Of a stretch of DNA of 33,193 bases, positions 1-11,678 are shown one piece after another. The notes under the pieces are model-generated. The model made no database searches. It worked only from the letters and a program-made list of their open reading frames with translations, and had not been told where the DNA came from. The DNA lies in assembly GCA_015490995.1 (NCBI GenBank), contig WFWT01000117.1:1-33193 (forward strand). Direction: 5' to 3'. Within the stretch, counting starts at the first letter, position 1. Every line of letters starts with the position of its first letter. A program made the position numbers and the translations under genes. This stretch comes from Anaerolineae bacterium. Lineage in GTDB: Bacteria; Chloroflexota; Anaerolineae; JAADDB01.

Positions 1-23
1 ATATGCCATTGTTGTTGCTCCAT
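1..23 (-). CDS. 5' end of a gene running out of the window
   Basis: Only the first seven codons and part of the eighth are present (M-E-Q-Q-Q-W-H). They begin at an ATG read on the minus strand at position 23, preceded by a good Shine-Dalgarno, AGGAGG, three bases upstream of the ATG. The gene is divergent from the ABC ATPase on the other side of the 24-384 region. Nothing can be said about the product; the call rests on the ribosome binding site and on a promoter-like pair upstream at 247-276. Confidence 0.5.
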
Positions 24-173
24 GACCTCCTAACTCATACCCCGGTGGGACCTATGTCCGGTTGAAGCCTCATGAGGGACCGCAGCAAGGAAATTGTCTC
101 CTCACACATCGCTCGGAAATCGTTGTGTTCCCGTAAATACACTTAGAGCATATATCTCCTTCGGTGATATAGC

Positions 174-185
174 TGAACGCGTTCA
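174..185. promoter_or_regulatory. Perfect 12-bp palindrome, possible operator
   Basis: TGAACGCGTTCA is identical to its reverse complement and has the central CG typical of LacI-family operators. It lies in the leader of the leftward gene. Which protein, if any, binds it cannot be seen. Confidence 0.3.
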
Positions 186-246
186 TCCCAGGGCGTGGGG
201 CAAAAGGTGGAAACTCTTCTTTTCAGGTGATTAGGTGACCACTGGC

Positions 247-276
247 ACTGTAGCATGGTTATCGGTTCCATGTCAA
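247..276 (-). promoter_or_regulatory. Promoter for the leftward partial gene
   Basis: On the minus strand a perfect -35 TTGACA (271-276) is followed after 18 nt by TACAGT (247-252). It would start transcription near 240, giving a long leader before the ATG at 23. Confidence 0.45.
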
Positions 277-7518: not shown

Positions 7519-8784
7519 ATGGTGTCGGAACATCGGCGGAAGATGTCACTCTTCTCGCTACCTGTGATCTCCTGGGCGCTTTATGACCTTGCAAACACCA
7601 TGTTTTCTATGAGCATTGTGTCGCTCTATTTCCCTTTATGGGTCGTTAACGTTATGGGGGGTACTGATCAGCTGTACGGCAATGCAAACGCTCTGTCCAT
7701 GGCCCTGATGTTTCTGACCGCGCCGGTGTTGGGCGCGATTTCGGATCAGGCCAACCGACGAATGCCGTTCCTCATCGCGAGCACTTTGTTATGTGTGCTG
7801 TTCACCGCGTTGCTGGGACTTGGCGGGCTGGTGCTTTCCATTGTTTTCTTTGTGGTGGCGAATTATATGTTTCAGGCGGGATTGGTTTTTTACGATGCGT
7901 TGCTGGCAGAGGTGAGTACGGATGAGAATCGAGGACGAGTGGGAGGCTTGGGCATTGGCCTGGGGTACATGGGCTCGTTTATTATTGTGGGGTTAGGGTT
8001 GTGGATTGTGCGTGACGAGGTCCCGGAAACCCTGGTGACCATGTTCCGACTCACTGCCATACTCTTTCTGCTTTTTGCTCTGCCCTGTTTTCTCTTTGTC
8101 AAGGAACGTCGGCGGCAGACGGCCGGTGTGTCCTGGAAGGTGGTGCGAGGCGCGTTCCTTCAGGTCAAGCACACCGTCGCCCATGCCCGGTCTTTCCCCG
8201 GGTTGCTTCGTTTCCTGATCGGCCGGGTGTTCTACACGGACCCGGTCAATACCGTAATTGTGTTCATGGGCGTGTACGTGACCAACGAGGTCGGTTTTAC
8301 CACCACTGAAGCCCAGGTGTTGCTTCTAGTAGCTATTGCCGCGGCAGTGTTAGGTGGGTTTGTCTGGGGTATGGTTGTGGACAACCAAGGTCCCAAGCGC
8401 ACATTGAACATGGTCTTGGGGTTATGGGGTGTGGTTTTCGCCATGGCTATCGGCGTGGCGATATTCCAGTTACCCAAGGGGCTTTTCTGGGTAGTCGGAG
8501 CGCTTGCCGGTGTCGCCTTGGGGGGCACCTGGGCTGCTGATAGGCCGTGGATGTTGATCCTCTCCCCGCCGCGTTACTTAGGAGAGTTTTACGGGTTGTA
8601 CAGCATGGCAGGGCGCTTTGCTTCCATTGTGGGACCGTTCACGTGGGGCTTGGTGGTGAACACCTTGGGGTGGGGACGACCGGCTGCAGTAGGAGTGTTG
8701 CTGGTGTTGCTCGTCGTGGCTTTCATCATTTTACAGGGGGTTGACGATACCCCCCGAGATTGGCCTGTGGAGCTTCGCGGGTGA
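7519..8784 (+). CDS. MFS transporter, UMF1/Atg22-like family
   Basis: A 421-residue integral membrane protein with about twelve hydrophobic helices. The N-terminal motif SWALYDLANT (18-27) and the long first helices followed by ISDQANRRMP between helices 2 and 3 are typical of the UMF1 branch of the major facilitator superfamily, related to the yeast vacuolar amino-acid exporter Atg22. The substrate in bacteria is generally unknown. ATG 7519 has TAGGAGG seven bases upstream. It appears to be a single-gene unit: its own promoter lies upstream and a new promoter for the translin gene lies downstream. Confidence 0.85.
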   Translation: MVSEHRRKMSLFSLPVISWALYDLANTMFSMSIVSLYFPLWVVNVMGGTDQLYGNANALSMALMFLTAPVLGAISDQANRRMPFLIASTLLCVLFTALLGLGGLVLSIVFFVVANYMFQAGLVFYDALLAEVSTDENRGRVGGLGIGLGYMGSFIIVGLGLWIVRDEVPETLVTMFRLTAILFLLFALPCFLFVKERRRQTAGVSWKVVRGAFLQVKHTVAHARSFPGLLRFLIGRVFYTDPVNTVIVFMGVYVTNEVGFTTTEAQVLLLVAIAAAVLGGFVWGMVVDNQGPKRTLNMVLGLWGVVFAMAIGVAIFQLPKGLFWVVGALAGVALGGTWAADRPWMLILSPPRYLGEFYGLYSMAGRFASIVGPFTWGLVVNTLGWGRPAAVGVLLVLLVVAFIILQGVDDTPRDWPVELRG

Positions 8785-8955: not shown

Positions 8956-8984
8956 TTGGCAAGGTGTATCGGGCCTGGTATACT
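8956..8984 (+). promoter_or_regulatory. Strong promoter for the translin-nuclease operon
   Basis: TTGGCA (8956-8961), exactly 17 nt, then TATACT (8979-8984). Transcription would start near 8991, about 28 nt before the translin start codon. This defines the beginning of the plus-strand unit that may run as far as queA. Confidence 0.6.
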
Positions 8985-9018
8985 CGCAATATCACGGATC
9001 GGCAACCGGGAACCGGTG

Positions 9019-9675
9019 ATGTCTATGACGGGCATACAGGCGATTGTGGAGCGAATTTTGGAACGCTTAGAGGTGAAAAATCAGGTGCGAGATGAAACCC
9101 TTCAACGCTCTCGTGAGCTGATTCGCACTTGCGCGCTGGTGACCCGGGCTATTCACCGCCAGAGCTGGGATGATGCTCGGTCGTTGCTAGCACAGGCTCG
9201 GTCTCAGGCTAGGGCTATGGTAGCCTCCTTACAGGGACATCCCGACCTGTTTTACACCGGCTATACCGGGGATGCCCTTAAAGAGTGGGTGGAAGCCGAG
9301 GTTTTGTACGCCATCGTGGTAGGGGAGACCCTTCCTACTCCCGAAAGCCTAAGGGTCCCAGACGGGGTTTATTTGGGAGGAGTGGCGGAAGCGGCTACGG
9401 AGTTGCGAAGACACATTCTTGACCTGATGCGTCATGGGCGCCTGGAAGACGCGGAACGCCTTCTGACGTGGATGGATGACATCTATGACGCCCTCATTCT
9501 GGTAGACTATCCGGATGCTATCACCGGCGGGCTACGGCGGGCAGTGGACGTCCTGCGGGGCGTGTTGGAGCGCACCCGAGGGGACCTAACCTTGTCATGG
9601 CAGCATCAACGGCTGACCATCGCACTACGCAATGCAGAACAACGCTGGAGCACCTCAGACCACACAACGGGATGA
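9019..9675 (+). CDS. Translin family protein
   Basis: A 218-residue, almost entirely helical protein matching the translin/TRAX family, which in eukaryotes binds RNA and single-stranded DNA and, as the C3PO complex, cleaves RNA. Recognisable blocks are LKEWVEAEVLYAIVV (87-101), YLGGVAEAATELRR (118-131), WMDDIYDALILVDYPDAITGGLRR (151-174) and VLRGVLERTRGDLTL (178-192). The acidic pair E89/E92 lies in the helix where TRAX carries catalytic acids; whether this protein is catalytic is not decidable by eye. ATG 9019 is used because the promoter at 8956-8984 would exclude an earlier start; ATG 9025 is an alternative. The end overlaps the next gene by 44 bases. Confidence 0.85.
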   Translation: MSMTGIQAIVERILERLEVKNQVRDETLQRSRELIRTCALVTRAIHRQSWDDARSLLAQARSQARAMVASLQGHPDLFYTGYTGDALKEWVEAEVLYAIVVGETLPTPESLRVPDGVYLGGVAEAATELRRHILDLMRHGRLEDAERLLTWMDDIYDALILVDYPDAITGGLRRAVDVLRGVLERTRGDLTLSWQHQRLTIALRNAEQRWSTSDHTTG

Positions 9676-9931
9676 CAGGTATCCACGCTTTATCCGGGCC
9701 AGTGAACTGGCTCGATGGGCATATTGCCATCGAGCTTGGTGGCTAGAGTACGTGCGTGGATACGCTCCTATGAACCTGGAAGCCCTCGCTAAAGGCCGTG
9801 CCTTCCACGAACAGCACGGCCGTTCGCGCGCTTGGGCGGATTATTATCGCCGGATGGCCCTATGGATGCTCTTCGGCGCGGTGGGCCTATTTCTAATGCT
9901 GCTGGCCTTGGTGCTGTTCTGGCTTCAATAG
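9632..9931 (+). CDS. N-terminal half of a split Cas4-like nuclease with a C-terminal membrane helix
   Basis: A 99-residue protein. Residues 21-65 read like the N-terminal part of Cas4/Dna2-type PD-(D/E)XK nucleases: RASELARWAYCHRAWWLEYVRG with the single N-terminal iron-sulfur cysteine C32, and KGRAFHEQHG with the conserved histidine H60. Instead of continuing into the nuclease core, it passes through YYRRMALW into one transmembrane helix (about 77-98) and stops. The basic residues before the helix place the N-terminal domain in the cytoplasm. The ATG at 9632 lies inside the translin gene and has no good Shine-Dalgarno, so translation is probably coupled to translin. The rest of the nuclease is in the next gene. 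Confidence 0.7.
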   Translation: MQNNAGAPQTTQRDDRYPRFIRASELARWAYCHRAWWLEYVRGYAPMNLEALAKGRAFHEQHGRSRAWADYYRRMALWMLFGAVGLFLMLLALVLFWLQ

Positions 9932-10020
9932 ACAGCACTCGAATACGGGATTAAGACCGACACAGGCCCACCCCCGAGGGGGAGACGTGCGGTGTGGCCA
10001 TAAGCCCGGGGAGGTGAAAC

Positions 10021-10563
10021 GTGGGCGTGGCATTGGTAGCCTTAACGTTGATCATCGTGATTTGGCTGGCTGTAACATATGTAGTGTGGCAGCGGGCAGC
10101 CGCGGCTCAGCGGGTTACCGGTTTGCCTCGGGCGAAAGTGGTGTATGAGGACATGTGTTCCGCGTTGCCGCCAGAGGGACCGCTGGTGAGTGAAGCCCGT
10201 CGCTTGGTGGGCAAGCCCGATTATCTCCTGGACGAAGGGGACTACATTATCCCCGTGGAAGTGAAGTCTACCTCTCTGCCCCGTTCCGGTGAACCGTATC
10301 CTGGACACGTGCTTCAACTGGCTGCGTATTGCCTGTTGGTGGAGGATGTGTACGGAAAACGTCCCCCCTACGGTTATATCCGCTACCGGGATAAGATGGT
10401 GCGGGTGCCTTACACCGATGAGGTTCGCATGTTACTCCTACGCACCCTAGCCGATATGCAGGCGGCCCTTGAAGCCACCTCTGTTGTTCGCTCCCATCGG
10501 GATCCCTGGCGATGTGCCCGGTGTGGCCTCGCGTACGCGTGTGGCCGCGAACGTCTCATGTAA
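10021..10563 (+). CDS. C-terminal half of a split Cas4-like nuclease with an N-terminal membrane helix
   Basis: A 180-residue protein. It opens with one transmembrane helix (3-23) followed by basic residues on the cytoplasmic side, then carries the missing nuclease core: GKPDYLL with D67, PVEVKS with E80 and K82 (the D, ExK pattern of PD-(D/E)XK enzymes), QLAAY (Q99, Y103) and the C-terminal cysteines C165, C168 and C174 in CARCGLAYAC. Together with C32 of the preceding protein these would complete a Cas4-type four-cysteine iron-sulfur site. The GTG start has GGGGAGGTG upstream, and an in-frame stop lies only three bases before it, so this is a real separate start, not a simple frameshift. 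It sits 89 bases after the N-half and 29 bases before manC. Confidence 0.75.
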   Translation: MGVALVALTLIIVIWLAVTYVVWQRAAAAQRVTGLPRAKVVYEDMCSALPPEGPLVSEARRLVGKPDYLLDEGDYIIPVEVKSTSLPRSGEPYPGHVLQLAAYCLLVEDVYGKRPPYGYIRYRDKMVRVPYTDEVRMLLLRTLADMQAALEATSVVRSHRDPWRCARCGLAYACGRERLM

Positions 10564-10592
10564 ATTCGAATTCTTTGTCGGGAGGTTCCTTG

Positions 10593-11678
10593 ATGACTGC
10601 TATACCTCATTTCTATCCTGTCATTATGGCGGGCGGAAGCGGCACCCGTCTGTGGCCATGGAGTCGCCGTGCCCGCCCGAAACAGTTTCTGCGCTTTAAC
10701 AGTCCCTACACGTTACTCCAAGAGACTTACCGTCGTGTGTTGCCGTTGACTTCTCCGGAGCGAGTGTTGGTAGTGACCAATCGACGTTTTGTGAACGAAG
10801 TGCAGGAGCAGTTGCCGGAGTTGCCGCCGGAAAATGTACTGGGTGAACCCGAGGGCCGTAACACCGCACCTGCCATCGGGTGGGCCGCTGTGGTACTCCA
10901 TCGACGAGACCCAAACGCCGTCATGGCCGCGTTGCCGGCGGATCACATAATTGCTCGAGTCGAACGTTTCCGGCGAGTACTGCGTGCGGCCGTTGCGGTC
11001 GCTCAGGAAGGGTACATCGTCACTCTCGGTATCACACCGACACACCCGGCCACCGGCTATGGCTACATCGAACAAGGGGATGTGCTCACAGAGCGAGAGG
11101 GATTTACTGTGTATCGCCTACTTCGGTTTACCGAAAAGCCCGACCGGACGACGGCTGAAGCGTTTCTGAAAGCCGGGCGGTACGTGTGGAACAGCGGCAT
11201 GTTCATATGGCGGGTGGACCGGGTACTCCGGGAAATACAACAACAGATGCCGGATTTGTACGCGGGGTTAGAGCGTCTAGGTGCTGTTTGGGGAACACCT
11301 GCAGCCCCCGAGACCCTTGCCGAAGTGTGGCCTACGCTTCCCAAGGAATCAGTGGATTACGGTATCATGGAACACGTGACCGACGCGGCTGTTATACCGG
11401 CGGACATCGGTTGGAATGATGTGGGGAGCTGGGAGGCCGTTTACCAAGAATATCCTAAGGATGCTTCTGGAAACGCGGTGTCCGGTGAGGTGCTGATGAT
11501 CGACGCCGAGGATAACCTTGTGCTAGGCGAGCGCCGTCTTGTGGTGGTGGTGGGTGCTACGAACTTGGTGGTCGTGGAGACGGAAGATGCTATCCTGATC
11601 TGCACGCGAGAGCGGGCTCAAGATGTGCGGCAGGTAGTAAAAACGTTAACAGCCCAAGGGCGCGAGGAGTACCTATGA
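10593..11678 (+). CDS. manC: Mannose-1-phosphate guanylyltransferase
   Basis: Makes GDP-mannose from mannose 1-phosphate and GTP, feeding glycan and glycoprotein synthesis. The 361-residue protein starts with the nucleotidyltransferase signature PVIMAGGSGTRLWPWSRRARPKQF (9-32), and has PADHII (about 110-115), the FTEKPD motif and NSGMFIW downstream. It lacks the C-terminal phosphomannose isomerase domain of bifunctional ManC/AlgA, so it is the shorter monofunctional type. ATG 10593 follows GGGAGG; the open frame extends upstream but overlaps the nuclease gene. Its stop overlaps the start of the surface-protein gene by four bases (ATGA), which couples sugar-nucleotide supply to a large exported protein. 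Confidence 0.92.
   Translation: MTAIPHFYPVIMAGGSGTRLWPWSRRARPKQFLRFNSPYTLLQETYRRVLPLTSPERVLVVTNRRFVNEVQEQLPELPPENVLGEPEGRNTAPAIGWAAVVLHRRDPNAVMAALPADHIIARVERFRRVLRAAVAVAQEGYIVTLGITPTHPATGYGYIEQGDVLTEREGFTVYRLLRFTEKPDRTTAEAFLKAGRYVWNSGMFIWRVDRVLREIQQQMPDLYAGLERLGAVWGTPAAPETLAEVWPTLPKESVDYGIMEHVTDAAVIPADIGWNDVGSWEAVYQEYPKDASGNAVSGEVLMIDAEDNLVLGERRLVVVVGATNLVVVETEDAILICTRERAQDVRQVVKTLTAQGREEYL

Follow-up and report, generated by a model that had tools for sequence, protein, structure and literature searches.

Cas4 nucleases (Pfam PF01930 / TIGR00372; solved structures 7mi4, 8d3l, 4r5q and 4ic1) are the closest described relatives of the gene pair reported here. Once its two halves are joined, the pair has in common with them the fold, the D-ExK-Q motif and a set of one plus three cysteines. 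The nuclease domains of Dna2, AdnA/AddB, Exo5 and MGME1 also have a RecB/Cas4-type fold in common with the joined halves, but at lower Z scores (9 to 15, versus 19 to 21 among the top-scoring Cas4s), and there the domain sits in one chain, unlike the split halves. According to the main text of Hudaiberdiev et al. (2017; PMC5704561), solo-Cas4 occurs in many Chloroflexi, is monophyletic there, and four cysteines are conserved in every Cas4 member; the words split, truncated and transmembrane do not occur in that main text. In contrast to the solo-Cas4s as that text presents them, each half described here holds only part of the four-cysteine set, and some of those Chloroflexi proteins may be the C-half described below.

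The window is the whole stretch of DNA that we analysed, 33,193 nucleotides of contig WFWT01000117.1 from an Anaerolineae bacterium (phylum Chloroflexota). It contains two neighbouring genes, the N-half and the C-half, whose products we consider likely to be the two subunits of a single membrane-anchored Cas4-type PD-(D/E)XK nuclease with a shared iron-sulfur cluster and active site. We found no description of a split or membrane-anchored two-subunit Cas4 in the open-licence literature. The Cas4 fold and Chloroflexi solo-Cas4 are already known; the two-gene, membrane-anchored arrangement is new as far as that literature goes. If our reading is true, the pair forms a naturally split nuclease in which two membrane proteins contribute the cluster ligands, kept through much of the phylum and occasionally fused. 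Solo-Cas4 counts in Chloroflexota may then be tallying half-enzymes.

Cas4 features divided between two genes

The original prediction, a Cas4-like nuclease made as two membrane-anchored halves, placed C32 in the first protein and D67, E80, K82, Q99, C165, C168 and C174 in the second, and all of these positions are right (Table 1). The Cas4 histidine of the first protein, given as H60, was off by one and is H59. It was also correct that the second half has its own GGGGAGGTG site and an in-frame stop just before its GTG (TGA at 10015-10017, two codons upstream of the GTG at 10021). The two open reading frames lie 89 nt apart in different frames.

Table 1. Features of the window, followed by the two single-chain versions found in other genomes
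Feature	Position	Strand	Details
N-half gene	9632..9931	+	99 aa; C32 (first cluster cysteine), H59 (motif-I histidine) and a membrane helix at the C-terminus
C-half gene	10021..10563	+	180 aa; N-terminal membrane helix, D67, E80, K82, Q99, C165, C168, C174
C32 codon (N-half)	9725..9727	+	from sequence; kept in 74/75 and 18/18 relatives
H59 codon (N-half)	9806..9808	+	from sequence; 75/75 in main group; lost or impossible to align in deep lineages
N-half membrane helix, about residues 80-98	9869..9925	+	most hydrophobic run of 19 residues, average hydropathy 2.68
GGGGAGGTG, predicted ribosome-binding site of C-half	10008..10016	+	from sequence; rated good, precedes GTG
C-half membrane helix, about residues 3-24	10027..10092	+	from sequence and family-wide hydropathy/charge test
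Predicted PD-(D/E)XK catalytic segment, D67 to E80-x-K82	10219..10266	+	invariant in 28 relatives
Putative cluster cysteines C165, C168, C174	10513..10542	+	invariant in 28 relatives; kept in nearly all of 125
Translin-family gene	8956..9675	+	NF011160, 8e-76; directly upstream, 44-nt overlap with N-half start
Single-chain version, G320	L251:322-1311	-	330 aa
Single-chain version, G080	L253:53-1111	+	both halves in one frame

Each half was scanned alone against TIGR00372 (cas4). The C-half matched profile positions 60-178 (3e-17, 63 bits) and the N-half positions 2-44 (4e-4, 20.3 bits); thus the halves tile one Cas4, with each score, taken alone, below the curated equivalog cut-off of 65 bits. 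Across Pfam and NCBIfam, the C-half is recognized as Cas4/PD-(D/E)XK, above the cut-offs of two Pfam models and slightly below that of TIGR00372, while the N-half had no match above any curated family cut-off tested, and because of this the complex is easily missed. With these TIGR00372 matches and a pair conserved phylum-wide, the observation is far beyond chance. In a profile alignment to Cas4 8d3l_I, the N-half cysteine corresponds to FQFC and the C-half cysteines to CNNC...C, the N-half part being weak alone.

Taken jointly, the halves match Cas4 in fold, site and cysteines and depart from it in chain number, equivalog score (each half scanned alone) and CRISPR context. The RecB-like Cas4 fold is predicted for the joined halves of a relative, described below. 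The putative PD-(D/E)XK residues are spread over both proteins, with H59 in the N-half and D67, E80, K82 and Q99 in the C-half, some deep lineages having lost them. The predicted four-cysteine set, one N-terminal and three C-terminal, is complete only when C32 is combined with C165, C168 and C174. Unlike Cas4 nucleases, the halves come from separate genes, in the window as in all 80 frame-checked loci; each has a membrane helix, and neither cas genes among the conserved neighbours nor Cas1 in the genome accompany them.

In a few loci the N and C frames coincide, with one stop between them. One such locus, L134, was joined by reading through its TGA, and the alignment used to model it comprised 101 more rows (N-halves, C-halves and other joined pairs). 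AlphaFold2 predicted the joined chain with a pLDDT of 93.8 and a pTM of 0.90, including two long helices (37-82 and 88-115). By VIA-align, the model superposed best on Cas4 7mi4_A (Z 20.8, 2.8 Å, 183 residues, model 2..259 to 5..200), followed by other Cas4s and then AdnA, Exo5 and Dna2, and Foldseek agrees. The original prediction expected the heterodimer to bring the four cysteines together with the helices paired; run as this single chain, the model gives one complete Cas4, superposed end to end, with the helices as an inserted hairpin, and in the profile alignment the cysteines pair with those of a solved Cas4. The model shows that the halves make one fold, for a chain joined beforehand and with some N rows misaligned in the helix region.

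The predicted topology, one membrane helix per half with positive residues on the inner side, holds across relatives. For the best 19-residue hydrophobic stretch, the Kyte-Doolittle mean is 2.46 in the N-half and 2.58 in the C-half. Lys/Arg precede the helix in 21 of 22 N-halves and follow it in 27 of 28 C-halves; therefore both soluble parts should be cytoplasmic, with the loops outside. Ordinary Chloroflexota Cas4s were considered as single-chain hairpin versions and dismissed, since none of the 20 checked has a membrane hairpin: their maximum 19-residue hydropathy is 0.6-1.7, versus about 2.0-3.2 in nearly all split-type members.

In the complex that we propose, the N subunit, which ends with a membrane helix, would contribute the motif-I histidine and the first of the cluster cysteines; the C subunit, which begins with a membrane helix, would contribute the catalytic D-ExK-Q residues and the other three cysteines. 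The helices would pair as a hairpin, letting the soluble parts close one Cas4 fold at the cytoplasmic face, where the subunits would share a single iron-sulfur cluster and a single active site. Neither half is complete alone, and activity should therefore depend on assembly. Computation shows the split and its conservation, how the halves co-occur, the topology signals, the natural fusions and the fold of one joined relative. We infer the physical association of the halves, the cluster and the nuclease activity; substrate and cellular role are guesses. Most likely, DNA with single-stranded ends, itself a guessed substrate, would be trimmed or cut at the inner membrane face.

Conservation of the residues and of the pair

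The proposed check for conservation of the split in relatives came out in favour, across the class as well as in further Chloroflexota lineages. The C-half is present in 46 of 60 relatives, and at least 23 of the first 30 loci have an upstream open reading frame with the N motif. Invariant positions are A23, S24, C32, W36, L38, G55, H59 and H62 in the N-half (22 relatives) and D67, E80, K82, Q99, Y103 and the three cysteines in the C-half (28 relatives). The 80-locus set covers Anaerolineae, Caldilineae, Thermoflexales, Chloroflexales (e.g., Candidatus Viridilinea) and one record titled Acidobacteria. A search for viral carriers gave one weak match, confined to the core.

The catalytic site is intact in the window's lineage. 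Across 125 split-type C sequences, a set that counts a few loci twice, substitutions affect D67 in 8 sequences, E80 in 7 and K82 in 4, most of them from deep lineages; only one or two sequences, truncated or unusual, do not keep the cysteines. Deep-lineage members without catalytic residues that retain the cluster cysteines are L190, L249, L250, L251, L253-L256 and L234. Since D67, E80 or K82 can be lost while the cysteines stay, cutting is not essential in all members; judging from these sequences, cutting seems less important in the deep lineages than the cluster or the fold. The same pattern, together with the retention in deep-lineage N-halves of the cysteine and not of the histidine, would suit a membrane-bound iron-sulfur scaffold or sensor that keeps the Cas4 fold and cluster, with nucleic-acid binding or redox sensing as its main function and cutting secondary or absent. 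However, the complete catalytic set is invariant in the window's class, as expected of an active enzyme, and we regard a scaffold or sensor as unlikely.

Among 301 Chloroflexota genomes, both halves were found in 82, the C-half only in 9, the N-half only in 3 and neither in 207. These tallies were made by hand from hit lists, the C-half being counted if its match spanned the membrane-helix part or was very strong, and the Fisher test of N/C co-occurrence ignores the shared ancestry of the genomes. In several of the 'C only' genomes an N part is present but escaped the search (G067, G080, G180, G269, G320 and G340), and G184, tallied as 'N only', carries an ordinary single-chain Cas4.

The original prediction proposed looking for one-chain homologues that carry a membrane hairpin at this position, and two exist, both in the distant family f60 (Table 1). 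Each has both halves in one frame and two hydrophobic helices with a short loop between them; the other f60 members are split. In a tree, the split-type sequences fall on one side of a branch from the 20 ordinary Cas4s (SH-aLRT 85, from few columns and not decisive). The single-chain state requires two changes on this tree, and the fusions therefore look secondary.

We also considered that the N- and C-halves do not work together, each acting alone or as a homo-oligomer. The genes are unlinked in some genomes, and translin accompanies the N-half and not the C-half, as separate proteins might. Yet neither half has the full Cas4 core or cluster set, natural fusions exist and the joined chain models as one Cas4. 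Furthermore, co-occurrence is nearly constant (82 genomes with both halves, 12 with one only), even where the halves are unlinked, as in G015 (at 3.05 Mb and 0.24 Mb of a single contig) and G335 (0.89 Mb apart on the same contig). We therefore find separate functions very improbable and retain the two-subunit nuclease.

Arrangement of the two genes

Within the 80 loci, the N-half lies inside the fetched stretch in 52, and in none are both halves in one frame. In 34 loci the halves adjoin or overlap each other, and in 16 an L,D-transpeptidase gene lies between them. Halves that are unlinked or have an intervening gene mean that neither sequencing error nor expression of one chain by frameshift can serve as a general explanation; read-through to a single chain was likewise ruled out as a general account by the conservation, the intervening genes and the unlinked halves. 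A local break (sequencing error, pseudogene or frameshifted single gene) would account for neighbouring reading frames that together equal one Cas4, but it is refuted by a split that runs through the class and beyond, by the 16 interrupted loci and by halves that are unlinked yet co-retained, and we give it practically no weight. An intact single gene with identical flanks, which would have pointed to such a break, was looked for and not found; single-chain genes occur only in the distant family.

The intervening L,D-transpeptidase (YkuD) was seen in L094, L099, L101, L107, L131, L132, L133, L141, L163 and L167, and is odd beside a nuclease placed at the cytoplasmic face. The split pair of the record titled Acidobacteria (L118:7501-8579) may reflect horizontal transfer or misbinning; its surroundings, named by eye, presumably encode Clp protease subunits and an aminoacyl transferase.

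Neighbouring genes and possible roles

Cas4 models give the best profile matches, and the pair could in principle be a split Cas4 of CRISPR adaptation. However, the source genome (99% complete) has no match to Cas1 and no further match to the Cas4 model, which makes such a role very unlikely; with neighbours such as translin, L,D-transpeptidase, HisS, NAD kinase and RecN, no cas genes, and a place on the tree apart from ordinary Cas4s, we discount it almost entirely.

A translin-family gene lies directly before the N-half in 35 of the 48 loci with room for it (gap -7 to 129 nt) and near the C-half in none of the 18 loci where the N-half lies elsewhere; thus translin goes with the N-half. The gene of one relative matches Pfam Translin (1e-4). 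Translin is present in 167 of the 301 genomes, more broadly than the split nuclease, so co-occurrence at the genome level says little and adjacency is the better evidence. The product of the translin-family gene next to the N-half may be a partner of the nuclease.

Our best guess is that the two-subunit nuclease has a housekeeping nucleic-acid function at the membrane, with DNA repair, DNA uptake and defence as alternatives. A bolder version, which we entertain tentatively and lean slightly against, is an ancient, phylum-wide and obligate two-subunit membrane nuclease whose only cluster and active site would arise upon pairing of the two membrane proteins and for which assembly or cluster loading would be the on-switch, coupled to bacterial translin in an undescribed inner-membrane nucleic-acid pathway. 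If the two-subunit nuclease itself works as proposed, it would be assembly-gated, Chloroflexota would gain a membrane-located nucleic-acid enzyme, and there would be a lead on the function of bacterial translin.

Across loci, downstream neighbours include HisS, NAD kinase and RecN, and DUF3467 and SSB lie further upstream. In Chloroflexales-type loci, the upstream gene is one that we take, from sequence only, to encode an RseP-type membrane protease. Near the split pair of two deep-lineage loci lies a gene or fragment (L202:10856-12169 and L204:5554-5871) that presumably belongs to the ComM/YifB Mg-chelatase-like family, as named by eye, and a link to DNA uptake is possible. In the window, the flanks hold an Atg22-like MFS transporter (7519-8784) and a mannose-1-phosphate guanylyltransferase-type gene (10512-11678), neither of which stood out as a conserved neighbour. 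Note that the NCBIfam PRK14562 models matching the window's translin-family gene are named 'haloacid dehalogenase superfamily protein'; since a relative's gene matches Pfam Translin, that name seems misapplied.
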